Source: Verrucomicrobiota bacterium
GTDB lineage: Bacteria; Verrucomicrobiota; Verrucomicrobiia; Chthoniobacterales; Terrimicrobiaceae
Assembly (NCBI GenBank): GCA_026398255.1
Contig: JAPLTG010000015.1
Coordinates: 186,001-250,000, forward strand
DNA: 64,000 bases
Direction of reading: 5' to 3'
The position numbers were made by a program, and so were the translations under genes. The notes under the pieces are model-generated. The model had not been told where the DNA came from. It made no database searches and worked only from the letters and a program-made list of their open reading frames with translations. This document shows positions 14,044 through 62,300 of this stretch, piece by piece; position 1 is the first letter of the stretch; the number at the start of each line of letters is the position of its first letter.

Positions 14044-16200
14044 ATGGCAGCCACGACCGACACCTCGAACCCGAACTCCCCCAACCGCGCTTTCCCTCTC
14101 GAGCGCACACGCAACATCGGCATCGCCGCGCACATCGATGCCGGCAAAACCACTCTCACCGAGCGAATCCTTTTTTACACCGGCATGATCCACAAGATCG
14201 GTGAGGTGCACGAGGGCACGACTGTCACCGACTGGATGGAGCAAGAGCGCGAGCGCGGCATTACGATCACCTCCGCCGCCACCACTTGCTCGTGGATGCA
14301 ACGCCCGGAGGAAGGTATCTACAAAGCCTACTCGGGAATCAAAATGCGGGTGAACATCATCGACACTCCAGGCCATGTGGACTTCACGGCCGAGGTCGAG
14401 CGCTCCCTGCGAGTTCTCGATGGCGCAATCGCCGTGTTCTGCGGCGTCGCTGGCGTCCAACCCCAATCCGAGACCGTCTGGCGCCAAGCCACCAAATACG
14501 GAGTTCCCCGCATCGCGTTCGTTAATAAAATGGATCGCACCGGCGCGGATTTCGACAATGCCGTCAACTCCATGCGCCAAAAACTCGGCGCCAATGCCTG
14601 GCCAATCCTCATCCCTCTCGGCCGCGAGGACTACCTCAAGGGCCAGATCGATGTCATCAACCAAAAGGCTGTCATCTATCATGACAACGACGCGATGGGC
14701 TCCACCTACACCATCGAAGAGATTCCCGAGGAAATGAAGGACACGGCCCAAGCCGCCTACGACGACCTCGTTTCCCAAATGTGTGACCTCGATGAGGAAA
14801 TCGGCATGCTCTACCTAGAGGAAAAACCCATTTCCATCGAGCAACTCAAGGCCGCCATCCGTCGCCAGACCATCGCCAACAAATTCGTCCCCGTCGCCGG
14901 CGGATCCGCATTCAAAAATAAAGGCGTCCAATACCTTGTTGATGCCGTCATCGACTACCTCCCCGGCCCGCTCGACATCGCGCCTGCCAAAGGACAAAAC
15001 CCCGACACCGCCGAGCCCATCGAAGTCGTTTCGAATGACAATGGGAAATTTTGCTCCCTCGCCTTCAAGCTCTGGAGCGATCCCTTCGTCGGCAAACTCG
15101 TTTTCTTCCGCGTTTACTCCGGCAAGCTCTCCAAGGGCGATACCGTTTACAATCCCCGCACCAACAAGCGCGAACGCATCAGCCGCCTCATCCAGATCCA
15201 AGCCGACAAGCGCGAAGATATCGATACCTGCTACTCGGGCGACATCGCCGCCATCGTCGGTATCAAAAACATCACGACCGGTGACACGCTCTGCGACGAG
15301 GATCACACCATCCTTCTCGAGCCACCATCCTTCCCCGACCCCGTCATCTCGATGGCTGTCGAACCGAAGACCAAGATCGACCAAGAGAAGATGGGCAATG
15401 CGCTCCAGCGCCTCGCTGAAGAAGATCCGACCTTCCGCGTCTTCACCAACGAGGAAACCGGTCAGACCATCATTGCCGGCATGGGCGAGCTCCACCTCGA
15501 GATCATTCGCGACCGTATGATGCGCGAGTTCAAGGTCGAGGCCAACTCCGGCAAACCTCAAATCGCTTACAAGGAAACCATCCTCACCCCCGCCGAGGGC
15601 GAAGGAAAACTCGTCAAGCAATCCGGCGGTCGTGGTCAATACGGCCATGTCGTCTGCAATGTTCGTCCCAACGAACGCGGGAAAGGACTCACGATTGAAA
15701 ACAAAGTCGTCGGCGGAACCATTCCCAAGGAATTCATCCCAGCCGTCGAAAAAGGCTTCAAAGAGGCCGTCCTCAACGGCGTCGTCGCAGGCTACCCCGT
15801 CATCGATGTCCATGTGGACATCACCGATGGCTCCTACCACGATGTGGACTCGAACGAAATGGCCTTCAAAATGGCCGCCATTTTCGCTCTCAAGGACGGC
15901 ATGAAAAAAGCCAAGCCGATCCTTTTGGAGCCAATCATGAAGGTCGAAAATGTAACTCCAGACGAGTTCCAAGGCGACATCATGGGCGACCTCAACCGCC
16001 GCCGCGCCCGCATCCAAGGCATGGAAACCAAAGGCAACCTTTGCACCATCAACGCCGAAGTTCCGCTCGCGGAAATGTTCGGTTACGCCACCGCGATCCG
16101 CTCGCTCTCGAAAGGCCGCTCCTCCTACTCGATGGAACCCTCGCACTTCGAAGAAGTCCCCGCTCAAGTCAAGGCCGCCATCCTCGAGCAGAAGGCATAA
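14044..16200 (+). CDS. fusA: Elongation factor G
   Basis: 718 aa translational GTPase that drives translocation. G1 is [12 protein letters not shown], switch 1/G2 is [14 protein letters not shown]3 is DTPGHVDFT and G4 is NKMDRTGAD. Domains II-V follow, with [14 protein letters not shown] in domain III and [11 protein letters not shown] in domain IV. A slightly longer G domain accounts for the length being above the usual ~700. ATG 14044 follows an A-rich leader without an obvious Shine-Dalgarno sequence. No tuf gene follows, unlike the enterobacterial str operon. Confidence 0.97.
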
Positions 16201-16214
16201 CCAAAGTCTCACTC

Positions 16215-16257
16215 AACAAACGCCGGACCTTGGAAACAGGGCCCGGCGTTTTTGTTG
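16215..16257 (+). terminator. Rho-independent terminator after fusA
   Basis: Inverted repeat ACAAACGCCGG / CCGGCGTTTTTGT with a 15-base loop, ending in a T-run at 16249-16253. It lies 14 bases after the fusA stop. Confidence 0.75.
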
Positions 16258-16281
16258 TCCGCCACATGACACGCACGATGC

Positions 16282-16310
16282 TTGCGCGGGACACTCCCCT
16301 TTTCTAGGCT
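16282..16310 (+). promoter_or_regulatory. Candidate promoter upstream of the metY remnant and metX
   Basis: TTGCGC (16282-16287), 17 bases, TAGGCT (16305-16310), 21 bases before the ATG at 16332. A -10 of the form TAGnnT matches the candidates before rpsL and sucA. No SAM-riboswitch fold was recognised between it and metX. Confidence 0.3.
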
Positions 16311-16331
16311 CTTGGCCTTATCCAGTTTGTT

Positions 16332-16412
16332 ATGAAACTTGAAACCATCTGCCTCCATGGCGGCACCGCTCCCGATCCCCTCACCCTCTCCCGCGCCACG
16401 GCGGCTCAATAA
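16332..16412 (+). pseudogene. metY: 26-codon remnant resembling the N-terminus of O-acetylhomoserine sulfhydrylase (MetY)
   Basis: ATG to TAA encodes 26 residues beginning MKLETICLHGGTAPDP and ending RATAAQ. MetY proteins characteristically begin with M-x-x-ET-x-x-LH-x-G-x-x-PDP-x-T-x-x-RA, so the start of the family is matched closely. The frame then stops where the next residues (usually PIYQTTSY) should begin. The rest of the gene (~400 codons) is absent; metX starts nine bases later. In many bacteria metY and metX are adjacent. It may be a deletion scar or could now serve as a short upstream peptide affecting metX translation. The MetY resemblance is seen; the history is inferred. Confidence 0.6.
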
Positions 16413-16421
16413 TTTTTTCAA

Positions 16422-17585
16422 ATGTCCCAAGGCGTCGGAACAGTCGAAACGAAATTTTTAACTTTTGGCAGCGCGGGCGAGCCCTTCGTCACCGCGGACG
16501 GCGGCGTGTTGCCATCGGTCACGATCGCTTACGAGACCTATGGCAAACTCAATGCCGACCGCAGCAACGCAATCCTGCTTTTCCACGCCCTGAGCGGCGC
16601 CCAGCACGCCGCCGGCACCAACAAATCCGTGCCCGGCACCGACGACCGCTGGACCGAAGAAATGCACACCGGTTGGTGGGACAGCTTCATCGGCCACGGC
16701 CGCGCGCTCGACACCGACAAGTTTTTCATCATCTGCGCGAACTACCTCGGCAGTTGCTACGGCTCCACCGGCTCGGCCTCGACCAACCCCGCCACCGGCA
16801 AGCCCTACGGTTCCAGCTTTCCGCGCGTCACGGTCCACGACATCGTCCGCTCGCAACTCCCCATCCTCGAGACGCACGGCATCGAAAAACTCCACGCCGT
16901 TGTCGGAGCCTCACTCGGCGGCATGTGCGCTCTCGACTTCGCGTTCCACTTCCCCGAGCGCGTCACGAATGTCATCCCGATCGCTACCGGCCTCCGCTCC
17001 CACGGACTCCAGCAGATGCACAACCTCGAGCAGATCATCGCCATCACGCGCGATCCCGCGTTCGGCAGCGGCGACTACTACGGCACCACCGGCCCGGTCC
17101 ACGGCCTCGCGCTCGCCCGCATGATCAGCCACAAGACATTCTTCTACGCCGATGCGATCGAGGAGCGCGCGAAGGTCGCGATCGTCCAACCCGAGACAGA
17201 CATCCCCTGGTATCGCATCTCAAGCGTCCTCGAGAGTTACATGCTTTATCAGGGACAAAAATTCGTCCGCCGCTTCGATGCGAATAGCTACCTGCGAATC
17301 ATCGACGCCTGGCAGCAGTTCGACCTCTTCAAGGACGCCAAAACCTCGGGCGCGCATCCGCTTTTCTCCCGCTGCCGCGACCAGCAATACCTAGTCTTCT
17401 CGATCGATAGTGATTGCTGCTTCTACCCCGACTACCAATCGGAAATTTGTGCCGAGCTGAAAAAAGCCGATGTCCCGCAACTGCGCCTCACCGTGCATTC
17501 CGAAAAAGGCCACGACAGCTTCCTGCTCGAGCCCAAGCTCTACACCCCGCACCTCGCCTACGCCCTCGGGCACCAACCTCGCTGA
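16422..17585 (+). CDS. metX: Homoserine O-acetyltransferase
   Basis: 387 aa alpha/beta hydrolase that acylates homoserine, normally from acetyl-CoA, as the first step toward methionine. Seen are LLFHALSGAQHAAG, GWWDSFIGHGRALDTDKFF, the oxyanion/substrate loop ANYLGSCYGSTG, nucleophile Ser164 in VGASLGGMCALDFA, the acid region FSIDSDCCFYP, and the catalytic His in SEKGHDSFLLE. The family also includes succinyltransferases, and sequence alone does not fix the acyl donor. It follows the metY remnant by nine bases. No downstream partner is present. Confidence 0.93.
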   Translation: MSQGVGTVETKFLTFGSAGEPFVTADGGVLPSVTIAYETYGKLNADRSNAILLFHALSGAQHAAGTNKSVPGTDDRWTEEMHTGWWDSFIGHGRALDTDKFFIICANYLGSCYGSTGSASTNPATGKPYGSSFPRVTVHDIVRSQLPILETHGIEKLHAVVGASLGGMCALDFAFHFPERVTNVIPIATGLRSHGLQQMHNLEQIIAITRDPAFGSGDYYGTTGPVHGLALARMISHKTFFYADAIEERAKVAIVQPETDIPWYRISSVLESYMLYQGQKFVRRFDANSYLRIIDAWQQFDLFKDAKTSGAHPLFSRCRDQQYLVFSIDSDCCFYPDYQSEICAELKKADVPQLRLTVHSEKGHDSFLLEPKLYTPHLAYALGHQPR

Positions 17586-17680
17586 CACGCGAATTTTAGC
17601 TTGGGCAGGACGGCTGGAACCACGCATTCTCCCGCGATGATTTTTGGTAGAAAAAACGAGCTCTCGCGGAGGCTCACTCA

Positions 17681-18937
17681 ATGATTCAGGGCTTGCCCGG
17701 GTTTCGGGATTTTTTTCCAGAGGACTGCGCGAGGCGGAATCATGTGGTTGCCACCTGGCGGGAGGTTTCGCGCCGATACGGCTTTGTGGAGTTCGATGGG
17801 CCAGCCCTGGAAAGCACGGATCTCTATCGAAAGAAAAACGAAGCGGGCGCAGAGATTCTCGAGCAGCTTTATTCCTTCACCGACCGCGGCGGCCGCGAGG
17901 TGGCGCTGCGCCCTGAAATGACCCCCACCCTCGCCCGCATGGTCGCGGCCCGCGAGAAGCACTACCGCAAACCGATGAAGTGGTTTTGCGTGTCGAATTT
18001 CTTCCGTCACGAACGCCAGCAAAAGGGCCGCCTGCGCGAGTTTCTTCAGTTCAATGCCGACATCCTCGGCGAGTCTTCGCCGCAGGCCGACGCCGAGATC
18101 ATCGCGCTGGCGATTGATCTCCTGCGGGCCTTCGGCTTCACAGCCGAGCATTTCGTCGTTCGTCTCAGCGACCGCAAGGCGTGGATGGATTTTCTCCAAT
18201 CGCGTGGCTGCGACGAGGCCGCCTGCCGGACCGCCCTCGCCTGCGCCGACAAACTCGAGCGCGAGCCCGAGGAAAAACTCAACGCTAAGCTCGCGGCGAC
18301 GGGCCTAACCGTCGCCGATCTCAAAGCCTTCATCGCAGCCGGAAGCCCCGAGGCGTTCGCCCCGGTTCTTGAGGCCCTCGCCGCGCGGGGGCTCACGGGA
18401 TTCGTCCAACCCGACCTCTCGATCGTGCGTGGCCTCGCCTACTACACCGGCGTGGTCTTCGAGATTTTCGACCGCTCGAAAAACCTCCGCGCCCTCGCTG
18501 GCGGGGGACGCTACGACGGCCTCGTGAAAGGCCTCAGCGACGGAGCCGCCGACCTGCCCGCCATCGGCTTCGGCATGGGCGATGTCGTCCTCGGCCACCT
18601 CATCGACGAAACCCCCGCCGCTGCCGAAAAACTCCAAGCCGCCCTCGCGCTAACAAGCGATGTGTTTGTCGTCATCGCAGACGAATCCCGCCGCGCGGAA
18701 GCCCTCCAGATCGTCCAAACTTGCCGCGAACTTGGCCTCTCCACCGACTTCCCGCTCAAGTCAGCTAAAGTCGGCAAGCAATTCCAAGAAGCCGAAAACC
18801 TCGGCGCCACCCATGCGGTCGTGATCGGCCAGGAATGGCCGCAAATCAAACTCAAGCACCTCGCCACCCGCGCCGAGCAAACCCTCGACCACGCCGCGCT
18901 CGCACCGACTCTTAAAACTTACAAACTTCATTCTTAA
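17681..18937 (+). CDS. hisS: Histidine--tRNA ligase
   Basis: 418 aa class II aminoacyl-tRNA synthetase. It starts MIQGLPGFRDFFPED. Motif 2 is in WFCVSNFFRHERQQKGRLRE and the His-A signature in GLAYYTGVVFEIF. LAGGGRYDGLV with the downstream GFGMGDVVL is motif 3. The C-terminal anticodon-binding domain begins near SDVFVVIADESRRAEALQI. Length matches bacterial HisRS. It is followed seven bases later by aspS, the common hisS-aspS pair. Confidence 0.95.
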   Translation: MIQGLPGFRDFFPEDCARRNHVVATWREVSRRYGFVEFDGPALESTDLYRKKNEAGAEILEQLYSFTDRGGREVALRPEMTPTLARMVAAREKHYRKPMKWFCVSNFFRHERQQKGRLREFLQFNADILGESSPQADAEIIALAIDLLRAFGFTAEHFVVRLSDRKAWMDFLQSRGCDEAACRTALACADKLEREPEEKLNAKLAATGLTVADLKAFIAAGSPEAFAPVLEALAARGLTGFVQPDLSIVRGLAYYTGVVFEIFDRSKNLRALAGGGRYDGLVKGLSDGAADLPAIGFGMGDVVLGHLIDETPAAAEKLQAALALTSDVFVVIADESRRAEALQIVQTCRELGLSTDFPLKSAKVGKQFQEAENLGATHAVVIGQEWPQIKLKHLATRAEQTLDHAALAPTLKTYKLHS

Positions 18938-18944
18938 AACTCCG

Positions 18945-20720
18945 ATGACCTACCGCACCCACCACTGCAACGCCCTCCGCTCCGAACATTCCGGCACCGA
19001 AGTCACCCTCTGCGGCTGGGTCGCCTCCCGACGTGACCACGGCGGACTCATCTTCATCGACCTCCGCGACCGCGAAGGCATCACGCAGGTTGTTTTCCGC
19101 CCCGAGGAAAATCCCGACGCCGCCAAGAAATCCCACGAACTCCGTAGCGAGGATGTGATCCGCGTCACCGGCAAAGTCGCCCCCCGCTTGGCTGGAACCG
19201 AAAACTCGAAATTGGCCACCGGCGCGATCGAACTCGTCGCCAGCGCGCTCGACATTCTCAATGCCGCCGAGGTCCTCCCTTTCCAACTCGACGACAAGGT
19301 TTCCAACGAAGACCTCCGGCTCACCTACCGCTACCTCGACCTGCGCCGCGAAAACATGGCCCGCAACCTCCGCCTGCGCCACCGCGTCGTGAAGACCATG
19401 CGCGATGTGATGGACTCCGAGGGCTTCCTCGAAATCGAGACTCCGATCCTCTCGAAAAGCACGCCCGAAGGCGCGCGCGACTTTCTCGTTCCCTCGCGCC
19501 TCACGCCCGGAGCGTTCTACGCGCTCCCTCAGGCCCCGCAGCAATACAAGCAACTCCTCATGGTCGCCGGGGTGGAAAAGTATTTCCAAATCGCCCGCTG
19601 CTTCCGCGACGAGGATTTGCGCGCTGACCGCCAGCCCGAATTCACCCAGCTCGATGTCGAGGCCTCGTTCACAACGCAGGACGAAATCCTCGCGCTGATG
19701 GAAAAAGTCATCGCCACTGTCTTCCGCGAGTCAAAAGGCATCGAAATCCCGACACCCTTCCCGCGACTTACCTACAAGGACGCGATGAACCGCTTCGGCA
19801 GTGACAAACCCGACACCCGCTTCGGCATGGAGATCACCGACCTCGGAGATATCTTCCGCGACACACAGTTCAAAGTCTTCCGTGGCGCTTTCGACAACGG
19901 CGGCGTGGTAAAAGCCATCAACGCCTCGGGCCTCGCCTGCATCACCACGGGCCAGATCGAAAATCTCACCGAACTCGCCAAACAAGCCGGCGCGAAAGGC
20001 CTCGCCTTTATCAAGGTCGAGAACGGTGAGTGGAGATCCCCGATCGTCAAATTCTTCACCGACGCCGAAAAAGCCGCCCTCACCGAACGCCTCGCCATCA
20101 AGGAAGGCGACCTCATTTTGTTCGGTGCCGACAAGTGGGAAACCGCCTGCGAAACGCTCGGCCGCGTCCGCCTTCGCGTCGCCGAAATGCTCGGAACGCT
20201 GAAAGATTCCACCGCGCTCAATTTACTCTGGGTCGTCGATTTTCCGCTGCTCGCCTGGAACGAGGAGGAGCAGAAGTGGAACGCTGTCCACCATCCCTTC
20301 ACCCGCCCCTGCGCCGAGGACCTTACGCTGCTCGAGGCTGGCGAATACGGAAAGATCCGCGCCGTGGCCTACGATGTGGTTCTGAACGGCGTCGAGATCG
20401 GTGGCGGCAGCCTTCGAATCCACGAATCCGATCTGCAGTCGAAGATGTTCAGCGTCCTCGGCGTTGATGCAGAGAAACAACAGCTCCTCTTTGGCCACAT
20501 CCTGAAAGCCTTTCAATTCGGCGCCCCGCCCCATGGCGGCATCGCGCTCGGCTTGGACCGCCTCGTCATGCTCATCGCCGGCGAGGAAAGTATCCGCGAT
20601 GTCATCGCCTTCCCGAAAAACAACCGAGGCGTCGAGATGATGACCCAGTCGCCCGCTGAAGCCGACTTCAAGCAACTCCGCGAACTTTACATCCAAAGCA
20701 CTGTTAAGAAGGCGACCTGA
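18945..20720 (+). CDS. aspS: [13 protein letters not shown] ligase
   Basis: 591 aa bacterial-type AspRS. The N-terminal OB-fold anticodon-binding domain has TLCGWVASRRDHGGLIFIDLRDREG. The class II catalytic domain has motif 2 in IARCFRDEDLRADRQPEFTQ, then the bacterial GAD insertion (about residues 290-410), and motif 3 GIALGLDRLVMLIAGEESIR. LPQAPQQYKQLLM binds aspartate and ATP. Whether it is discriminating for tRNA-Asp or also charges tRNA-Asn is not evident; no gatCAB is visible here. It forms a two-gene unit with hisS. Confidence 0.96.
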   Translation: MTYRTHHCNALRSEHSGTEVTLCGWVASRRDHGGLIFIDLRDREGITQVVFRPEENPDAAKKSHELRSEDVIRVTGKVAPRLAGTENSKLATGAIELVASALDILNAAEVLPFQLDDKVSNEDLRLTYRYLDLRRENMARNLRLRHRVVKTMRDVMDSEGFLEIETPILSKSTPEGARDFLVPSRLTPGAFYALPQAPQQYKQLLMVAGVEKYFQIARCFRDEDLRADRQPEFTQLDVEASFTTQDEILALMEKVIATVFRESKGIEIPTPFPRLTYKDAMNRFGSDKPDTRFGMEITDLGDIFRDTQFKVFRGAFDNGGVVKAINASGLACITTGQIENLTELAKQAGAKGLAFIKVENGEWRSPIVKFFTDAEKAALTERLAIKEGDLILFGADKWETACETLGRVRLRVAEMLGTLKDSTALNLLWVVDFPLLAWNEEEQKWNAVHHPFTRPCAEDLTLLEAGEYGKIRAVAYDVVLNGVEIGGGSLRIHESDLQSKMFSVLGVDAEKQQLLFGHILKAFQFGAPPHGGIALGLDRLVMLIAGEESIRDVIAFPKNNRGVEMMTQSPAEADFKQLRELYIQSTVKKAT

Positions 20721-20735
20721 GTTTGGCTTTTTGTT

Positions 20736-20770
20736 CCGCCTTCAAATCTTTTGCAGGAGGCGGGCTTTTT
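20736..20770 (+). terminator. Possible Rho-independent terminator after aspS
   Basis: CCGCCT (20736-20741) pairs with AGGCGG (20758-20763) across a 16-base loop, followed by GCTTTTT. The stem is short, but the position just after aspS is right. Confidence 0.5.
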
Positions 20771-20872
20771 GGAGCAAGCGGCTGGATTCATAGTGAAAGA
20801 CTTTCGTTATCCAATCCGGCGCTTTCTCAGTGGTTGACTGTTTCGCGAAGCCAGCCACTCTTTCGCCCGCGA

Positions 20873-21904
20873 ATGCTTGATTTGAAATCACAGAGGGTGG
20901 ATTCGACGGCTCGGGGATGTGATCTTCCGCGCTTACGGGCGGCGTTACTTGGCGCACTGGTTTGCGGTTTTTTCGCGCTGATTCTTCCGCTCCGTGCGGA
21001 GGGCGAGCCGGTCCAAACCGTGCGGGTTGGTTTTTTCCCGAACATCACCCATGCCCAGGCTCTCGTGGCTTCAAACATGAGCCGCGAAGGGAAAGGTTGG
21101 TTCGAGAGCCGGCTGGGGACGCCTGCGAAAATCGAGTGGAATATCTACAATGCCGGCCCTTCCGCGATGGAGGCGTTTTTCACCAAAGCCATCGACCTCA
21201 GCTATGTCGGCCCGAGCCCGGTGGTCAACGCCCATGTCCGCGCGAACGGCAAGGAAGTCCATGTGCTCTCTGGCGCGATGCGAGGCGGCGAGGCTTTGGT
21301 CGTCCGCGGCGAGGGGATTTTGACCACCGAGGACCTTCGGGGGAAAACCATTGCCACGCCCCAACTGGGAAATACCCAGGATGTGGAGTGCCGCTTCTGG
21401 CTGCTCGAGCATGGGATGAAAGTGACCCTGGTGGGCGGAGCCGCCCGAGTCATCCCGACCGCAAACCCCGACATGCTCCAACTCTTCACTCAGGGAAAAC
21501 TCGATGGCGCATGGACGGTCGAGCCGTGGGTTACCCGCCTTGTGAATGAAGCTGGTGGGTGGATTTTTCATTGCGACCCAAACGCCGTCACCACCGTGCT
21601 CGCGGCCCGCTCGGGATTTCTGGCGGAAAATCCAGAAGTCGCCCGGAGGTTCGCGACCGCCAATGAGGAACTCACTGCTTGGATGATCGCCAATCCCGAG
21701 GAGGCCCGACGACGCATTCGCAACGAACTCAGCGCCATCACACGCCGGGAGATTCCTCAATCCCTGGTCGATGAGGCCTGGCCGCGGCTCCATCCCAACA
21801 CCTCGATTTCCGTGGAGCCGTTCGAGAAATTTCTGGAAAAGGCGAAAAAGGTTGGTTTCCTGCGGGCCGAAGTGAATTTGAAAAACTTGATTTGGAAGCC
21901 ATGA
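20873..21904 (+). CDS. ABC transporter substrate-binding protein (NrtA/SsuA/TauA-like)
   Basis: 343 aa from ATG 20873; a longer frame begins at 20723 but adds no signal sequence. A hydrophobic signal segment (LLGALVCGFFALILPLRA) precedes the mature protein, TVRVGFFPNITHAQALVASN. Ligand-site segments include NAGPSAMEAFFTKAIDLSYV, GPSPVVNAH, GKTIATPQLGNTQDV, and QGKLDGAWTVEPWVTRL. This is the NMT1/SsuA-like periplasmic fold used for nitrate, sulfonates, taurine or thiamine precursors. The substrate cannot be named from sequence. The stop overlaps the ATPase start (ATGA). Confidence 0.85.
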   Translation: MLDLKSQRVDSTARGCDLPRLRAALLGALVCGFFALILPLRAEGEPVQTVRVGFFPNITHAQALVASNMSREGKGWFESRLGTPAKIEWNIYNAGPSAMEAFFTKAIDLSYVGPSPVVNAHVRANGKEVHVLSGAMRGGEALVVRGEGILTTEDLRGKTIATPQLGNTQDVECRFWLLEHGMKVTLVGGAARVIPTANPDMLQLFTQGKLDGAWTVEPWVTRLVNEAGGWIFHCDPNAVTTVLAARSGFLAENPEVARRFATANEELTAWMIANPEEARRRIRNELSAITRREIPQSLVDEAWPRLHPNTSISVEPFEKFLEKAKKVGFLRAEVNLKNLIWKP

Positions 21905-22713
21905 GCCTCGAAGCCGAACTCGCCAACGCCCAGCCCGAGCGCATTGAGATTCAAGGCGTCACCAAATCCTACACCACTCAGCGCGGCACCGTCGTGGCCC
22001 TCGATAATGTCAGCCTCAAAGTCGGCGAGGGGGAATTCCTCTGTTTGGTCGGCCCCAGCGGTTGTGGAAAATCCACGCTCCTGAATATCATCGCCGGCCT
22101 CGACGAGCCCACTTCCGGACGCGCCCTTGCTGCCGGAGAATCGATTCGTGGTCCAGGGCGCGACCGCATGGTGATGTTCCAAGAGCACGCTCTTTTCCCA
22201 TGGCTGGATGTGATCGGGAATGTTCTCTTCGGCCTCCGACTCAAGCCCGGCCTGAACCGCAAGGAGCGCAATGAGGTTGCGCGATACTACCTTCATCTCG
22301 TGGGGTTGAACAAATTTGAGCACGCCAATATCCACGAACTCTCGGGGGGAATGAAACAGCGCGTGGCTCTCGCCCGCGCCCTGGCACCCAATCCTCGCGT
22401 GTTGCTGATGGATGAACCCTTCGCCGCACTCGACGCGCTCACCCGCGAACAACTCTACGGCGACATTCAGCGCATCTGGGAGGCGCGCCGGAAAACCATC
22501 ATCTTCGTCACTCACAATGTCCGAGAGGCGGCCTGCCTCGGAGACAGAGTTCTTCTTTTCTCGCCGAACCCCGGCCGCATTCGCGCGGAGTTTATCATCA
22601 AGCTTCCGCGCCCGAGAGATATCAACAGCATCGAACTCGCCCACTACTCCACGGAAATCACTGCGACCTTGAAAGGCTTCAACTCCGCATCGGGCAAGGA
22701 GGCTTCCGAATGA
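21901..22713 (+). CDS. ABC transporter ATPase (SsuB/TauB/NrtD-like)
   Basis: 270 aa from ATG 21901, overlapping the previous stop. Walker A is GPSGCGKST, Q-loop VMFQEHALFPWLDV, signature LSGGMKQRVALARAL, Walker B VLLMDEPFAALD and H-switch IFVTHNVREA. The PRPRDI tail is typical of nitrate/sulfonate/taurine importer ATPases. It powers uptake with the binding protein upstream and the permease downstream (ATGA overlap at 22710-22713). Confidence 0.93.
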   Translation: MSLEAELANAQPERIEIQGVTKSYTTQRGTVVALDNVSLKVGEGEFLCLVGPSGCGKSTLLNIIAGLDEPTSGRALAAGESIRGPGRDRMVMFQEHALFPWLDVIGNVLFGLRLKPGLNRKERNEVARYYLHLVGLNKFEHANIHELSGGMKQRVALARALAPNPRVLLMDEPFAALDALTREQLYGDIQRIWEARRKTIIFVTHNVREAACLGDRVLLFSPNPGRIRAEFIIKLPRPRDINSIELAHYSTEITATLKGFNSASGKEASE

Positions 22714-23480
22714 TCCGCACCATTTCTTCCACCGCATTCTTCCTCGTTCTTCTTCTCTCCTGGGAAGTCGCATCGCGCTCCGGCCTCTACTCGCCGGTGC
22801 TGCTTCCCTCGCCGCTGAATGTCTTCGAATACCTGTGGCAGTCCGGCATGGATGGCACCCTGTGGACGGCCACGCTGGTGACCATGAAACGCCTCTTGCT
22901 CGGCTATGGAATCGGCCTGCTCTTTGGCGTCCCCCTCGGCCTGCTCACTGCGCGATCCCGGATCATGCAGGACACCCTCGGACTCCTCGCGCTGGGAGTT
23001 CAAACCCTCCCCAGCGTGTGCTGGGTGCCGCTCGCCCTGCTGTGGTTCGGACAATCCGAAGCCGCCATGCTTTTTGTGGTGGTGATGGGAACCCTCTGGT
23101 CGGTGATCATTGCCACCAGCGACGGCGTCCGGGCCATGCCGCCGATTTACCTCCGCGCGGCTCGCACCATGGGCTCGAGCGGACTCCACACTTGGGTCAA
23201 AGTCATCCTTCCCGCCTCGCTTCCATACCTCGTCGGAGGCATGAAACAGGGCTGGGCTTTCGCATGGCGATCGCTCATGGCCGCAGAAATTTTCGTGACC
23301 ATCCTCACCGGCTTTGGCCTTGGCCAACTCCTCCAATATGGCCGCGAACTCCTCGCGATGGACCAAGTGGTCGCTGTCATGGCGATTATCATCGTGATCG
23401 GACTCCTCGCCGACCGAATCCTCTTTTCCCCTTGGGAGCGGTTTTTCCACCGCCGCTGGGGAACCGGTTCCGTGAATTGA
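22710..23480 (+). CDS. ABC transporter permease (SsuC/TauC/NrtB-like)
   Basis: 256 aa inner-membrane subunit with about six transmembrane helices (for example ISSTAFFLVLLLSWEVASRS and VVAVMAIIIVIGLLAD). The EAA loop that docks on the ATPase is YLRAARTMGSSGLHTWVKVI followed by LPASLPYLVGGMKQGWAFAW. LPSPLNVFEYLW near the N-terminus is typical of the family. Last gene of the three-gene importer; it converges on gcvP. Confidence 0.92.
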   Translation: MIRTISSTAFFLVLLLSWEVASRSGLYSPVLLPSPLNVFEYLWQSGMDGTLWTATLVTMKRLLLGYGIGLLFGVPLGLLTARSRIMQDTLGLLALGVQTLPSVCWVPLALLWFGQSEAAMLFVVVMGTLWSVIIATSDGVRAMPPIYLRAARTMGSSGLHTWVKVILPASLPYLVGGMKQGWAFAWRSLMAAEIFVTILTGFGLGQLLQYGRELLAMDQVVAVMAIIIVIGLLADRILFSPWERFFHRRWGTGSVN

Positions 23481-23558
23481 ATTCAGACTCCCCCCACGGT
23501 GCGGCGATGAGCTGATTCCCTTTCGCCGAATACTGGTTCGTTCTCGTGATTTCCTGAA

Positions 23559-26375
23559 TTAGGAACCCACCATCGGCGGGCAGGAGCAGAAGACATGGCG
23601 GTCGCCGTGGACATTGTCGATGCGGGCGACGCTGGGCCAGAATTTGTGCTGACGGAGCCACGGGGCAGGCCAGGCGGCTTGCGAGCGCGGGTAGGGTCGC
23701 GTCCAGTCGTCGGCAGTTACGGCAGCTGCGGTGTGCGGGGCGTTTTTGAGCGGGTTGTTGGTTTTGTCGAACGCACCGGATTCGACCGCGAGAAGTTCGC
23801 CGTGGATCGTGATCATGGCGTCGCAGAAGCGGTCGATTTCGGCTAGGGATTCGCTCTCAGTCGGTTCGACCATGAGCGTTCCGGCGACCGGCCAGCTCAT
23901 CGTCGGGGCGTGGAATCCAAAATCCATCAGGCGCTTCGCAACATCCTCGACCTCGATACCGGCGCGTTGTTTCCACTCGCGCAAATCGAGGATGCATTCG
24001 TGGGCCACGCGGTTGGATTTTCCCCGGTAGAGGATGGGGAAACATTTTTCGAGACGGGTGGCGATGTAGTTTGCACTGAGGATGGAGACGGCCGTGGCGT
24101 CACGAAGGGCGCGGGGGCCCATCATGGCAATATACATCCAGGAAATGACGAGGATGCTCGCGCTGCCAAGGTTCGATTGGGAGACGGGGCCGACGGCGCT
24201 GTTGTTGGCAAGCGGGTCGCCGGGCAGGAAGGGCGCGAGGTGCTTGGCAACGCCGATGGGGCCGACGCCTGGACCGCCTCCGCCATGCGGAATGCAGAAG
24301 GTTTTGTGGAGATTGAGATGGCAGACATCCGCACCAAAATCGCCGGGACGGCAGAGGCCGACCTGGGCGTTCATATTCGCGCCATCCATGTAAACCTGAC
24401 CACCCCCAGCGTGGACGATGTCGCAGATGTCGCGGATGCCTTCCTCGAAAACGCCATGCGTGGAGGGATAGGTGACCATCACGCAGGCGAGCGTGTCGCG
24501 ATGGGCATCGGCTTTGGCGCGGAGGTCGGCGAGGTCGATGTTGCCGGATTGGTCGCAGGCGACGGGGACGACTTTCATGCCGGCCATGACGGCGCTCGCT
24601 GGGTTCGTGCCGTGAGCGGAAACGGGGATGAGGCAGTCGGTGCGCTGAGTTTCGCCGCGAGAGCGGTGCCAGGCACGGATGGCAAGGAGACCGGCGTATT
24701 CGCCCTGCGAGCCGGCGTTGGGTTGAAGAGAAACGGCGGCGAATCCGGTGATTTCGGCGAGCCATTCCTCCAGCTGACGCGCCATTTTTTGATAGCCGAG
24801 AGATTGGTCGGCGGGCGCGGCGGGGTGGAGTGAGGAGACGGTGTCCCAAGTGACCGGGAGCATCTCAGAGGTGGCATTGAGCTTCATCGTGCACGAACCG
24901 AGCGGGATCATGGAGGTCGTGAGCGAGAGGTCCTTCGCCTGCAAACGGCGGATGTATCGGAGCATCTCGGTCTCGGTATGGTGCGTGTTGAAGACCGGGT
25001 GAGTGAGGAAGGGCGAGGTGCGTTGGAAGGCGGGTGGAAAGGTAGCGCGGGCGTCCCGCCCGTGATCGATCAATGGCAGGCGGGACGCCTGCCCTACAAA
25101 GAGCTCGAGCAAAGGACCGAGATCCTCGGTGGTTTCGTCGAGCGAGATGGTAATCGTTGTCGGGTTGAGGAGACGGAGGTTGATGCCGGCCTGAGCGGCG
25201 CGGGCGACCAAGGCTGGGGCGGACTCGTTTTTTGGAGTCACGCTGATTGTATCGAAAAATGCGGCGTGGTGGACGGTGTGACCGGCGTTTTTGAGGGACT
25301 CGGCGAGCTTGGCGGCGTGGCGGTGGATGCGCTCGGCAATCGAGCGGAGGCCCTCGGCGCCGTGATAAACGGCATACATCGAGGCCATGACGGCGAGAAG
25401 AACTTGGGCGGTGCAGATGTTGCTGGTCGCCTTGTCGCGGCGGATGTGTTGCTCGCGGGTCTGGAGAGTGAGGCGCAAGGCGGGATTGCCAGCGGCGTCT
25501 TTCGAAACGCCGACAAGCCGACCGGGGAGGCGACGCTTGTGTTCATCGCGGGTCGCGAGGAAGGCTGCGTGGGGCCCACCGTAGCCGGGAGGGACGCCAA
25601 AGCGCTGGCTCGAACCGATCACGACATCGGCCCCACATTCGCCGGGAGGTTTCAGGAGGGTGAGCGCAAGGAGGTCGGCAGAAACGATGGCGAGAGCACC
25701 GACCGCGTGGGCGCCGGCGACGAGTTTTTCCAAGTCGCCAATCGAGCCGTCGGTGGCTGGGTATTGAAAGAGGGCGGCAAAGACAGGTTCGACGGGAAGG
25801 TTTTCGGCAGGGCCGGTGAGAACCTTGATCCCAAGCGGCTCGGCGCGGGTTTGAAGAACAGCGAGGGTTTGGGGATGGACATGGTCGGCGACGAAAATCG
25901 CATCGCCGCCCTTGATGTCGTGACAAAGCGTCATCGCCTCGGCGGCAGCGGTGGACTCGTCGAGCAGGGAGGCGTTGGAAATCTGCATCCCGGTGAGGTC
26001 GCAAACCATCGTTTGGAAATTGAGAAGCGCCTCGAGACGGCCTTGCGCAATCTCGGCCTGATAGGGGGTATAGGCCGTATACCAGCCGGGATTTTCGAGA
26101 ATGTTGCGGCGAATGACGGCAGGTGTGTGGGTGCCGTGGATGCCCATGCCGAGGTGGTTGGCAGCGATTTTGTTCTCCGACATGATCGCGCGGAGGGCGG
26201 CGAGGGATTTTTCCTCGGAACGCGCGGCGGGGAGGTTCAGGTCGTTTTTAAGCCGGATCGAGGCGGGAACGGTTTCGTTGATCAAGGCGTCGAGCGAGGG
26301 CACGCCAACAGCGGCGCACATGGTTTCAATTTCCTTGGAGTCGGGGCCGATATGGCGGTGGGCAAATGCGGTCAT
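23559..26375 (-). CDS. gcvP: Glycine dehydrogenase (decarboxylating), P-protein
   Basis: 938 aa single-chain P-protein. It decarboxylates glycine with PLP and passes the aminomethyl group to lipoylated GcvH. The N-terminus is [16 protein letters not shown]; the C-terminal half carries [18 protein letters not shown] and the PLP lysine in [20 protein letters not shown] (near residue 690). At about residues 427-444, the junction of the two halves, an insert beginning [16 protein letters not shown] comes from a palindromic repeat at DNA level and keeps the frame open. The next residues, [20 protein letters not shown], are again normal. It is the last gene of the speA-gcvT-gcvH-module-gcvP run. 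Confidence 0.96.
25042..25096. repeat. Palindromic REP-like element inside gcvP
   Basis: 55 bases. The left arm GGCGTCCCGCC is the reverse complement of the right arm GGCGGGACGCC. The right unit is itself a hairpin (GGCAGGCG-GGA-CGCCTGCC) followed by CTAC. The 23-base right unit is identical to one at 28036-28058 in gcvT. The element is translated in frame within GcvP. Confidence 0.8.
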
Positions 26376-56314: not shown

Positions 56315-59300
56315 TTACTTTGGCAATATACCGATGTTTGAAGGCCCGCCAGACCCGCCGGAGCTTGATTCTCCCCAAGTTACAACAGATCCATCTTTTA
56401 ATAGAGCAGCAAAGGCTCTTTCAGTTGAGTAAATTTTAACTACATCCGAACTATTCAAGCTTGGCCCTTGGCCCCCATATTCAGCTCGACCCCAAGTGAC
56501 AATCGGGCCACTTTGCTTCACAGCTACAAAAGCCGAGTAATTTGAATAAATCGTCTTAACATTGGATGTTAGATTTGATGAAATACTGCTATATGTGTCG
56601 TAATAGCCGTGATAAACTGATGAATTGCCGCCAGCTCGGTCTTCCCCCCAAGTAACTACTGAGCCATCATTTTTTAAAGCTGCAAATGCATTGCTTGTAG
56701 AAAACATTTCTTTCACATTTGAAGAAAGCATCGAAGCCACACTTACGAAGCTATTTGATGGACTAAGATATATTGTGGAATTCCCGCCGTAAAACGCAGA
56801 CCCCCAAGTAATTATAGAACCGTTTTTCTTTAGGGCTGCAAACGCAGTTCCCGTGGAATAGATAGCCGTGACATTTGAGGACAAACTTGATGCAACGCTA
56901 GTTGAGTCGCCGCCAAAGTCCAGATAACCCCAGGACACAACAGAACCATCTTTCTTCAGCGCGGCAAATGCATGATTATTAGAATAGATTTTTGTGACAT
57001 TACCGCTCAATTGATTTGATACGCTAGTAGAATTTCCTCCATATTCAGAGTCCCCCCAAGTGACTACTGAACCATCTTTTCTTAGCGCTGCAAAGGCACT
57101 ACCATTTGAAACAATCGTTGTCACATTTCCACTCAACTGGCTTGAAACTGCGGAGGAATTGCCGCCAGCACGAATAACTCCCCAGGTAACAACAGCGCCA
57201 TCTTGCTTTAAAGCTGCAAATGTGCCTCCACCTGAATAGATGCTGGTAACATTTGATGACAAAGCGAGTGCTACACTCCCGCTCTCAACCCATCCATCAA
57301 TATACGAAGTCAGGCTCGAATTTCCACCGGCTGCTAATTCGCCCCAAGTAGCAACTGAACCATCTTTTTTTAGGGCCGCAAATGCGCCATAATTAGAGTT
57401 AATACTCAAAACATTTGCAGATAATTTAGATGCAACGCTAGTTGAGTTACCACCATATTCTGAGTTACCCCAAGTAACCACCGAACCATCTTTCTTTAAG
57501 GCTGCAAATGCAGTTCCCGTGGAATAGATAGCCGTGACATTTGAGGATAAACTTGCTGCTACACTAATTGAGTTGCCTCCATGCCTCGGATCACCCCATG
57601 ATACGACTGAACCATCACTTTTAATTGCTGCAAAAGCATATGGATTGGAAAAAATGGTTCCAAGATTCGAAGCGGCACCGACCACTACGACCACTTCCAC
57701 CTCATCCCAATAGCCGCCGGATTCGACTCGGATGACGAAGGTGTAGGTGCCGGCGGTTGTCGGGGTGCCGCTGAGGGTGCCATTGGCGCTGAAGGACATG
57801 CCGGGGGGAAGGAGACCTTCGCTGATGGACCAGACTTTGTCTCCCGTGCTGCCGACTGCGCCGAAGGTGAAGCCTGCGTAGGCTTGGTTGAGCGTAGCTT
57901 CGGGCAAGGTGCCGCTGATGGAGATTTTCGGCCCGATGTTGCGAGCGAGGCGGAAGCCAAAATCTTCACGGTGGGCATCCGCATCGGTGGAACTACCCCC
58001 GCGGAAATGGGTTTCCATATAACCAGATGCATCGTAAATCCAAGAACCGCCACGGGTTCTACGGTCCAATCCGGTTGGCAATTGAACCTCGTCCCAGCAG
58101 AACTCCAGAGCATTTCCGCTCATGTCGTAAATGCCAAGTTCATTAGGTGACTTCAGTCCCACGGCCCAAGTTCCGCGTCCATCTTTTTGGTCAACAAGTG
58201 CCCCGTTGGCGTTTAAAAAATACCATCCCACTTCATCCAAGGAGTTGCTGCCGCTGTAGAGGTAACCTAGGCTGGAAACTCCTCCGAGGGCCGCCCATTC
58301 CCATTCGGACTCCGTGGGCAAACGAAACCCATTGGCAACTTGGTTCTCCTGCACTGCACTGGATCCGTTTGCGCCGAAGTTTCCTGTTCGATAAATGGTT
58401 CCGTTCACCGTGTAGACAGGCGTCAGCCCATCCATCTGACTCTTGGCGTTGGACCATTTCACCACATCATACCAACTCACATTACGCGCGGGGTGGTTGC
58501 CTGCACTCCCCTGCCCTACGCCGGCGAGGTCGGTGTAGCCGTTGGCGACGGCCCAAGTGCGGACGGTTTGCCATTCGTCCCAAGTCACTTCTGTGCGGCC
58601 GATTTGGAAGGCTTGGACTTTCTGCCCGGCGAGTTCGGAGCTTTCTGGCAAAGTGCCGCCTTGGACGGTGACCATGTCGCCTGTGGCGTTGCGGACATAC
58701 CGGATACCCATGCTTGGAAAATCGAGGTAAATTCCGTTTCTGAAAAACACCGTGCAGTGGTCGGGCGTGCCTGCTCCGCCGCGGCGGGCTCTACCGCCAG
58801 TTACGGCATCCCAGCACCATTCCCATTGGTTGCCACTCATGTCATAAAGACCGAGTTCGTTGGGCAGTTTTCCACCAATAGGTTTCATGATGTTTGGCGA
58901 GTTGCTCCAATACCATGCCACCTCTTCGATGTTATTGCTTCCGGCGTAGGTGTAGCCCTTGCTTTGGACACCACCGCGAGCCGCCCATTCCCACTCCGCT
59001 TCGGTTGGCAGACGATATCCATTGGCATTCGGATTCCATTCAGGAATTTGCTGGCCTTTTTTGAAAATAGTTCCGTTAAAAGTATATGCAGGCTGCAGAC
59101 CTTCCATTTGACTCTTGGCATTGCACCACTTGGCGGCATCGTTCCAAGTCCAGACATAAGCAGGGTAGTTGCTGCCAGTGAAAACCTGACCGTGATTTGA
59201 ATCACTTGTGGCAAATTCACGCGAAAATCGGAATTCATAACCATTCTGCACCGCCCATTTGACCACCTCGCGGTATTCAGCCCAAGTGGTTTCGAAGCGG

Positions 59301-62300
59301 GCGATGTGGAAGGCAGAGACGGTTTGGTTGGCGAGCGCGGATCCAGAGGGCAATGTGCCGCCTTGGACGAGGACCATGTTCGGTTCTCCGGATTCCTCAG
59401 AGTAGAGCTGCGAGACTTCAGCAGCGCTTAGAGCGCGGTTGTAGATGCGGACTTCGTCGATATTGCCTTTGAATCTGCCGTAGGGGCCTCCTCCAATGCC
59501 TGTATCTTCTTGAGGTGAAAATGCTCGGAGTATTTTTTCCCTTCCAGAACTGAGACCCGTTCGAACATGTTTCCCATTTAAGTAAAGAAGAGGCGCAGCG
59601 TTGTTACTGGATGTAATCGCTACTTGAACCCAATCTGAATTCAATGGTGCTGGATAGCTTAAGACAACAGGCATATATTGAAAGGCATGCTCCAACACGC
59701 TTATGCCATTGGTTCCAGCAGCTAACAAGAAACCACCATGATTCCCCCCTCCGCCCACCACATACTTGTGTATGTATGAAGTGCCTGATGTGGCTTCAGT
59801 GCCAAGAATTTCTTCCTCGGTAGCTTTTATCCATGTAACAAGCGTCACATTATCCTCTGCGGTTGTTAGTTCAGAATCTACTGAAGCTATAGATCCAGTA
59901 GCCCCATCAAAGAAATAGGATTTGTTAGAATCTCCAAATCTGTCGGGGCTAAGAACTACATTACCAACAATTTTCCCATTTTTCCCATAACCGCTCTCAT
60001 CCACCGCATTCCCATCAAACGGGTAATGCGCCACCAAGCCCACACTCAGCGGTTCGAACGATTTTCCATCAAACGGATTCGTCCCATCATACATTTCGCG
60101 GTAGTCGTTCACGCCATCACCGTCGGAGTCAAAGTTGTCCGAGCGGCGGCCGGCTTGGTAGCCCATGTCGGCGCGGGTGTCGTCGGGGTCTTTGTTGGCG
60201 GGGTTGGCGGTGTTGATGGCAGGTGAGCCGCTTTGGAGGCTGTAGTCGCCGGAGTCGGGGTTGTTCAGCTTCGGATCGGTGCCGAGGTTGCCGGTGCCTG
60301 CGGTGAAGGTCTCGATGCCGCCGGAGGTGACGCCATTTTGGGAGAGCGTGTAGGTGACGGTGGCCACGGTGCCTCGGTTGTAGGGATAGGCGAAGGCGCC
60401 GATCTGGTCGCCGCCGTTGGCCCAGAGGATGCTGTTCATGAGGTCCATCTTGCCGCCGTTGGCGAGGGAGACGCCGCCTTGGTAGCCGAAGAAGTTCCGG
60501 CTGTCGTTTTTGTAGACAGTGACACGATCGAGGATGATCTTCGAGCCCTCGGTGAGCGTGGCGCCGCCGCTGGCCCAGGCGTAGTTCTCGGCGAGGACGC
60601 AGTTTTCCACGGTGAGGATGTCGGTGGGTTTGCCGATGGAGTAGATGGCTCCACCGAAGGTGGCGGAGTCGCGGCCTGGGGTGCCAACGCCGTTGCCTCG
60701 GATAATGCAATTTTTTACCGTGGCGGTGGTGCGGCAGTGGATGCCGCCACCGTAGTAGTCGAAACCGTAGGAGGAGGGCTGCGGACGGCCTGTGCCACCG
60801 GTGATGGTGAAGCCGTCGATGAGGGTGCCCTCGCCTGCGATTTCAATGACGGTTTTGCCTTTCACGCCGCGCAGGGTGGTCTGGGCTTCGCCGGATTGGG
60901 AGATGAGCTTTACGCTCTTGCCGACGATCGAGACGGTGCCGTTGTAGCTACCGGGCTGGACCATGATGGTGCCGCCGGTGCGCGAGGTATCCACCGCTTT
61001 TTGCACGGTGACGAAGGGTTTGGCGAGTGTGCCGTCGCCTGTGGTGTCGCTGCCGGAGGTGGCGACCCAGAGGATGGCGAGTTCGGGTTTGATGACCTCG
61101 AGGATGACCTCGATCTCTCCCCAACGACCGCCGGAGCTGGCGCGGACGATGAACGAGTAGGTGCCTGCTGTGGCTGGTGTGCCGGAGATTTTTCCAGTGG
61201 CGGGGTCGATTCCCAACCAAGCGGGTTTGTTGCCGGTGATGGACCATGTGTAGCTGCCGCTACCTCCATTGGCGGTGAGGCCGAAGTCAAGGCCGCTGCC
61301 TTCTGTGCCGGTGGGGATGTCGCCATCGACGGCGATTTGGATTTTGCGCACGAGGGCGAGGCCGTGTTTCGCACCGGCGGCGATGCCGAGGACATTGCCT
61401 GGAGCGGGCGGCGGCGTGATGTTATCGGGGTTGAAGCCCCAGTTCACGATGGAGTTGTCGGCCTTGAAGGCGAGGGTGCGGTCGCCTTCGGCGGAGATTT
61501 GCACGACATTGGTTAGCCCGGCGGGCACGGTGGCTTGGGCGGTCCAGTTGGCTCCCCAGGCGACGACGGTGCCGTTGGCTTTGAGGGCGACGGAGTGGTA
61601 GTCGCCAGCGGCAATCTGGGTGACGCCGGTGAGACCTGCAGGCACGGTGGCTTGGCCCATGTCGTTGCGGCCCCATGCGACGACGGTGCCGTCGCCTTTG
61701 AGGGCGAGCGCGTGGCCGCGGCCGGCGGCGAGTGCGGTGACATCCGAGAGGCCAGCGGGGATGGTGGCTTGGCCTTGGTCATTGGCTCCCCAGGCGACGA
61801 TGCGTCCATCGCCGGTGAGGGCGTAGGAGGTATTGAAGCCTGCGGCGATGAACTTCGCGCGGCGGAGTGTGGCGGGGATGGTGGTCTGGTTGCTGGTATT
61901 CCAGCCCCAGCCGGTGACTTTGCCTTCGCTATCGAGTGCGAGGTAGTGGTTGTTGCCTGCGGCGACTTGGACGATGTCCTTGAGGTCGGCTGGCACATTG
62001 CGCTGGCCGGCCCAGTTTGTGCCCCAGACGGAGACGGTTCCGTCAGCGCGAAGTGCGGCGGAGCTGGAATCGCCCGCAGCGATCTGGACGACGCGATTGA
62101 GTGCGGTCGGAATGGTGGTCTCACCATTCGGGTTCGCTCCCCATGCGATGACATCGCCTTCCTGGGTCGGACGCTCGGGCGGGAGTTCGTCGATCTCATG
62201 GATCTGGATGACTTGGTTGGCGGCGACATTTTCCAACACGCTCTTCAACCCGCTCGGCCAGTAAACGGTTACCTTGGCGGCCTGCGCCTTGTCGGCAAGG

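Follow-up and report, generated by a model that had tools for sequence, protein, structure and literature searches.

The locus between fusA and hisS

The stretch of DNA analysed here, which we call the window, covers 64,000 nucleotides of a Verrucomicrobiota bacterium, and all coordinates below refer to it. Between the gene for elongation factor G and hisS lies an intact metX, preceded by a short open reading frame and arranged as follows:

14044 to 16200, plus strand: fusA (elongation factor G), the upstream neighbour, named by eye from its translation; relatives have homologous DNA
16219 to 16254, plus strand: inverted repeat and T run after fusA, a likely terminator picked by eye
16282 to 16310, plus strand: possible promoter, TTGCGC-17 nt-TAGGCT, picked by eye
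16332 to 16412, plus strand: 26-codon ORF with the metY start and stop codons, read as a metY deletion scar (ORF, alignment to G020)
16332 to 16397, plus strand: metY codons 1-22, the 5' remnant (nucleotide identity to G020, breakpoint scan)
16398 to 16412, plus strand: last four metY codons and stop (TAAQ and stop), 15 nt (alignment to G020)
16413 to 16421, plus strand: gap from metY stop to metX start, 9 nt, against 8 nt in G020 (locus comparison)
16422 to 17585, plus strand: metX, homoserine O-acetyltransferase, 387 aa, intact (NCBIfam NF001209, 353.1 bits, cut-off 331)
17681 to 18937, plus strand: hisS, the downstream neighbour, named by eye from its translation; collinear with G020

The window MetX clears the NF001209 cut-off and stays under that of TIGR01392 (348.9 vs 500 bits). 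It is 98% identical to the MetX of G020, the nearest relative among the genomes compared and a member of the same genus, with pS 0.09 and pN 0.006.

The short ORF starts with ATG and encodes 26 amino acids, MKLETICLHGGTAPDPLTLSRATAAQ, followed by a stop codon. At the same place G020 has a metY of 426 codons, whose product begins MKLETICLHGGAAPDPITLSRA, also given as MKLETICLHGGAAPDPITLSRAVPL, and ends in ...DQALATAAQ; the end of the stub, ...SRATAAQ, matches this C-terminus. When the genome of the window was searched with the G020 MetY, the stub was recovered at E 1.6e-6 (28.1 bits, 83% over residues 1-24), and the likeness is therefore not a matter of chance. Alignment of both ends shows that codons 1-22 of G020 metY run directly, without a shift of frame, into the last four codons and the stop of that gene, with exactly 1,200 bp (400 codons) absent relative to G020. 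Positions 16332-16396 are identical to G020 metY at 56 of 65 nt, the best-fitting breakpoints lie within scar positions 58-65, where the exact breakpoint is ambiguous within a few nucleotides, and about three bases (CGC) are common to the two junction sides in G020. A comparison of the 26-residue peptide with NCBIfam gave no match.

The initial annotation had suggested that this ORF may be a metY deletion scar, ending nine bases before metX, and this reading holds: both ends are homologous to those of the intact orthologue in this position, the catalytic body is gone, the join is in frame, and 9 nt separate the TAA from the metX ATG at 16422. It had also let the likeness to MetY stop at the residues RA, with a TAATAA-like end. 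The N-terminal part of this is correct, but the likeness resumes after the junction, and the end of the ORF is also metY; the stop is a single TAA (16410-16412) in a sequence that reads CAATAATTTTTTCAAATG. A further metY in the genome, for which the annotation had advised a search, was not found in the 44-contig draft, listed as 100% complete, with either Pfam family PF01053 or the G020 MetY as query. PF01053 gave seven matches, and only one of these, an enzyme on contig C16, exceeded 100 bits. The G020 MetY matched 24 residues of the stub, the C16 enzyme in two places (31-32% identity) and, weakly, contig C13. Taken together, these data make it very probable that an in-frame deletion of 1,200 bp in the lineage of the window reduced metY to this ORF.

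Upstream of the stub, the initial annotation had noted a candidate promoter. A scan of 16100-17800 for the sigma-70 consensus found no promoter. The block chosen by eye is only suggestive; the DNA around it aligns in part with that upstream of metY in G020, G014 and G019. The repeat after fusA was likewise not listed by a scan that allowed loops of 3-8 nt, and the alignment to G020 reaches 16257. The stop of fusA and the scar are only 131 bp apart in the window. The corresponding region of G020, the counterpart of window 16258-16331, holds about 6.5 kb between fusA and metY (L085, 5346-11844), in which we named by eye two glycosyltransferase-like genes and sucrose-phosphorylase-like, HAD-like and glucosyl-phosphoglycerate-synthase-like genes. 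One protein of this cluster had no match in the window's own genome (G000), in a search run without a positive control. Overall, collinearity between the window and G020 contig C91 extends for about 53 kb, interrupted by a few other insertions or deletions; about 2.9 kb of the window (20712-23566) lacks an equivalent at the corresponding position in G020. Beyond the aligned stretch, an open frame of 2,281 aa occupies 56315-63160 on the minus strand.

metY and metX in related genomes

Full metY is present in 3 and MetX in 4 of 16 genomes of the genus, several of which are incomplete, and 31 of 213 genomes of the order have a MetX match at E 1e-40 or better. We surveyed the adjacency of the two genes at 110 loci from three sources (12 + 18 new + 80), with some genomes counted twice. 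Genomes whose best MetX segment reaches 78% identity to that of the window were placed in a close class, which holds 13 genomes besides the window's own: 11 with an adjacent metY, two of these cut by a contig start, together with G075 and G077, in which metX is split over contigs and a full metY precedes its 5' part. Thus defined, all 13 have an adjacent metY, with a gap to metX of 5-10 nt in every case. Within the class the scar occurs only in the window, and no conservation of the short ORF as such is seen; the 13 relatives carry metY itself. The two genes are also kept in G014 and G019, of the same genus, where they appear to overlap by about 8 nt. The initial annotation had made its reading depend on there being relatives with metY at this locus, and G020, G014, G019 and the entire close class are such relatives. 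Among farther loci, an adjacent metY is often absent, or metY stands in another arrangement.

To look for similar scars, we scanned 530 nt at the start of metX with a regular expression for metY motifs. Both strands were scanned with an identical offset, which means that the true upstream side of metX is covered on one of them only. The sample was 33 loci from a hand-made list of loci without an adjacent metY (L019 was skipped, and some others, L126, L135, L136 and L162 among them, were not listed), and the regular expression found no further metY scar in it. LH[AG]G words in L197 and L169 (plus strand) and L115 (minus strand) were judged by eye to be chance, and matches in L011, L012, L013 and L197 are the ends of full metY genes in another arrangement, not scars.

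The two genes group differently in trees of 24 MetX and 23 MetY rows. The MetY of G020 groups with those of G014 and G019 (support 100/98). In the MetX tree, the window and G020 group with the genomes of family f8 and G003 (100/99), while G014 and G019 group with G069 (99/99). From these placements, the metX behind the scar is of a type foreign to the operon: it seems that metX was swapped inside the operon, the window and G020 having a metX of another lineage and G020 a metY of the genus type.

What the deletion may have left behind

An in-frame deletion of this kind would remove 1,200 bp of metY and leave its start region, its stop codon and the intergenic spacing in place. Since these survived, the stub should still be transcribed together with metX, and if translated it would end 9 nt before metX. 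It may be, then, that the stub is translated and that metX, coupled to it or not, is expressed from the former start region of metY. On this reading the event is ordinary gene loss with a non-polar outcome, which resembles a non-polar knockout made in the laboratory.

Loss of the enzyme itself may have been tolerated because another route to homocysteine may exist. The C16 enzyme is a cystathionine-synthase-like (CGS-like) protein of 426 aa, with its start chosen by hand, and adjoins a PatB-type C-S lyase (412.7 bits, cut-off 340; L024, 5633-8211). The genome also encodes homoserine dehydrogenase (on C16), MetH (on C44) and MetX. Among the matches listed (25 of 43 matching families), the CGS-like enzyme falls far below every curated cut-off, and its nearest solved relatives are CndF and BesB, so a replacement route is uncertain and a role in homocysteine synthesis is a guess. 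Besides metY itself, a PF01053 match above 100 bits occurs only in the window genome and G020 among the 16 genomes of the genus. The CGS-like/PatB region is collinear with G020 contig C49 at 92%, yet G020 keeps metY, so that a by-pass alone does not explain the loss. The direct sulfuration route (PF01837) was found in none of the 16 genomes; the family was detected in 3 of 14 controls.

Could the stub have acquired a function of its own? The initial annotation had proposed that it is retained because it positions ribosomes for metX. The geometry allows this: the final 15 nt of metY are kept and 9 nt separate its stop from metX, an arrangement in which translational coupling is plausible. In a study of E. 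coli gene pairs (PMC10666635), distances of -8 to +10 nt are taken as predictive of coupling, a range that includes the +9 nt of the stub, and the last 15 nt of the upstream gene were enough for coupling in the two pairs tested. The same source considers independent initiation the likelier case for E. coli pairs near +10 nt and reports that +14 nt already cuts reinitiation by 40-80%. Further points in favour of a short leader ORF under selection, whose translation delivers ribosomes to metX, are the in-frame join itself and the tight or overlapping metY-metX boundaries of relatives. In the other two frames no stop lies close in front of metX. One of them runs on into metX and terminates at 16461, 40 nt into the gene; the other meets a stop at its third codon and then stays open for the remainder of the 369 nt examined. 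Against this, a deletion falls in frame by chance one time in three, and the scar is known from one genome. A Shine-Dalgarno-like word precedes only 2 of 24 hand-picked starts in the window, the stub being one of the 24; as starts lacking one are the rule, neither the stub nor metX is unusual, and metX may initiate independently. The fold of 16319-16470 is no stronger than that of shuffled sequences (z 0.22).

The codon differences bear on the same question. Relative to G020, the 22 metY codons of the stub differ at 8 of 17.2 synonymous sites and at 2 of 48.8 non-synonymous sites. When these were polarised by eye with G014 and G019, T12A and three synonymous changes (codons 8, 9 and 20) fell on the G020 branch. 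Codon 17 is Leu in the window, Ile in G020 and Val in the outgroups, which leaves the window branch with about one synonymous change (codon 3), one non-synonymous change (codon 17, Val to Leu) and some ambiguous ones, too few for a test of selection. With several differences belonging to the G020 branch and the remainder possibly older than the deletion, most cannot be placed after it; purifying selection acting on metY while it was still whole accounts for the pattern no less well than selection on the stub. Nothing in the data points to selection for the retention that the initial annotation had suggested, and we regard a leader ORF under selection as unlikely. The fuller version, in which one in-frame deletion turned an enzyme gene into a leader that selection keeps because metX translation needs ribosomes that finish at the former stop of metY, appears slightly less likely again.

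Another possibility is that the junction arose by recombination with G020-like DNA, with homology on the metX-hisS side and few shared bases on the metY side, and that metY was deleted in the same event. Of 840 windows of 1.4 kb, taken at 50-nt steps, the least diverged from G020 starts at 16401 (2.4%, against a mean of 7.3%), the metX-hisS intergenic region is identical at 94 of 95 positions, and the 8 synonymous differences in the 5' part of the stub are many for the metX rate of 0.09 (P 5e-5). Such contrasts are less telling in a region where pS ranges from 0.09 to 0.57 in 32 of 39 aligned ORFs (the remaining 7 have even lower values and were taken by eye as spurious), where the mre-type neighbours (7449, 8255) are nearly as low in pS as metX, and where other 1.4-kb windows go down to 2.6-2.8%. 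Moreover, the divergence of the stub is reached in 15% of 65-nt windows, and its P becomes 0.05 at a rate of 0.26. A lowest-divergence window that begins at the junction hints at a later exchange within a patchy background, and we think recombination as the origin of the junction improbable, though worth keeping in mind. That the assembly is in error and metY intact in the organism is suggested by the draft state of the genome and by the single instance of the scar; with the junction inside a 253-kb contig, only about three bases shared by its sides in G020 and no other metY fragment in the assembly, we consider this very unlikely. The position of a short ORF upstream of a methionine gene also brings to mind a classical attenuation leader peptide that senses methionine or cysteine. 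The sequence contradicts this so clearly that we give it almost no weight: instead of a run of regulated codons, the stub has one Met codon, its start, and one Cys codon; a terminator scan found no terminator-like site between stub and metX; an Rfam search of 15800-17800 gave no match up to E 5; and the fold described above offers no terminator or antiterminator. Simple decay of metY by an in-frame deletion remains our preferred account of the stub.

The stub beside known systems

Searches of the literature on metY, metX and translational coupling together, and on in-frame gene loss in operons, found nothing, and the matches listed in further searches made no mention of a metY scar. If selection keeps the stub, it would be an example of a leader ORF arising from a dying operon gene; as a product of gene loss, it is a natural counterpart of the non-polar knockout.

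The closest comparison is with the Keio knockouts. In these (PMC8547470), the start codon and the last seven codons (21 nt) are kept to spare the downstream gene, and expression of the gene directly downstream of Keio-type deletions is nevertheless often lowered after transcription. As in those scars, the start codon and last codons of metY are retained, and metX keeps its upstream stop and spacing. Unlike them, the stub is natural, retains 22 N-terminal codons plus the last four codons and stop, and has no recombinase site. It also resembles the short upstream ORFs that deliver ribosomes to a coupled gene, as treated in a review (PMC12548453), in that it ends just before the next start; it differs from the ORFs described there in deriving from a decayed enzyme gene, and its coupling to metX is putative. 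The locus can also be set beside the metY-metX operons of Verrucomicrobiota relatives (G020, G014, G019, G003 and family f8), with which it shares gene order, tight spacing, both ends of metY and metX, whereas the loss of 400 metY codons is seen in the window only.
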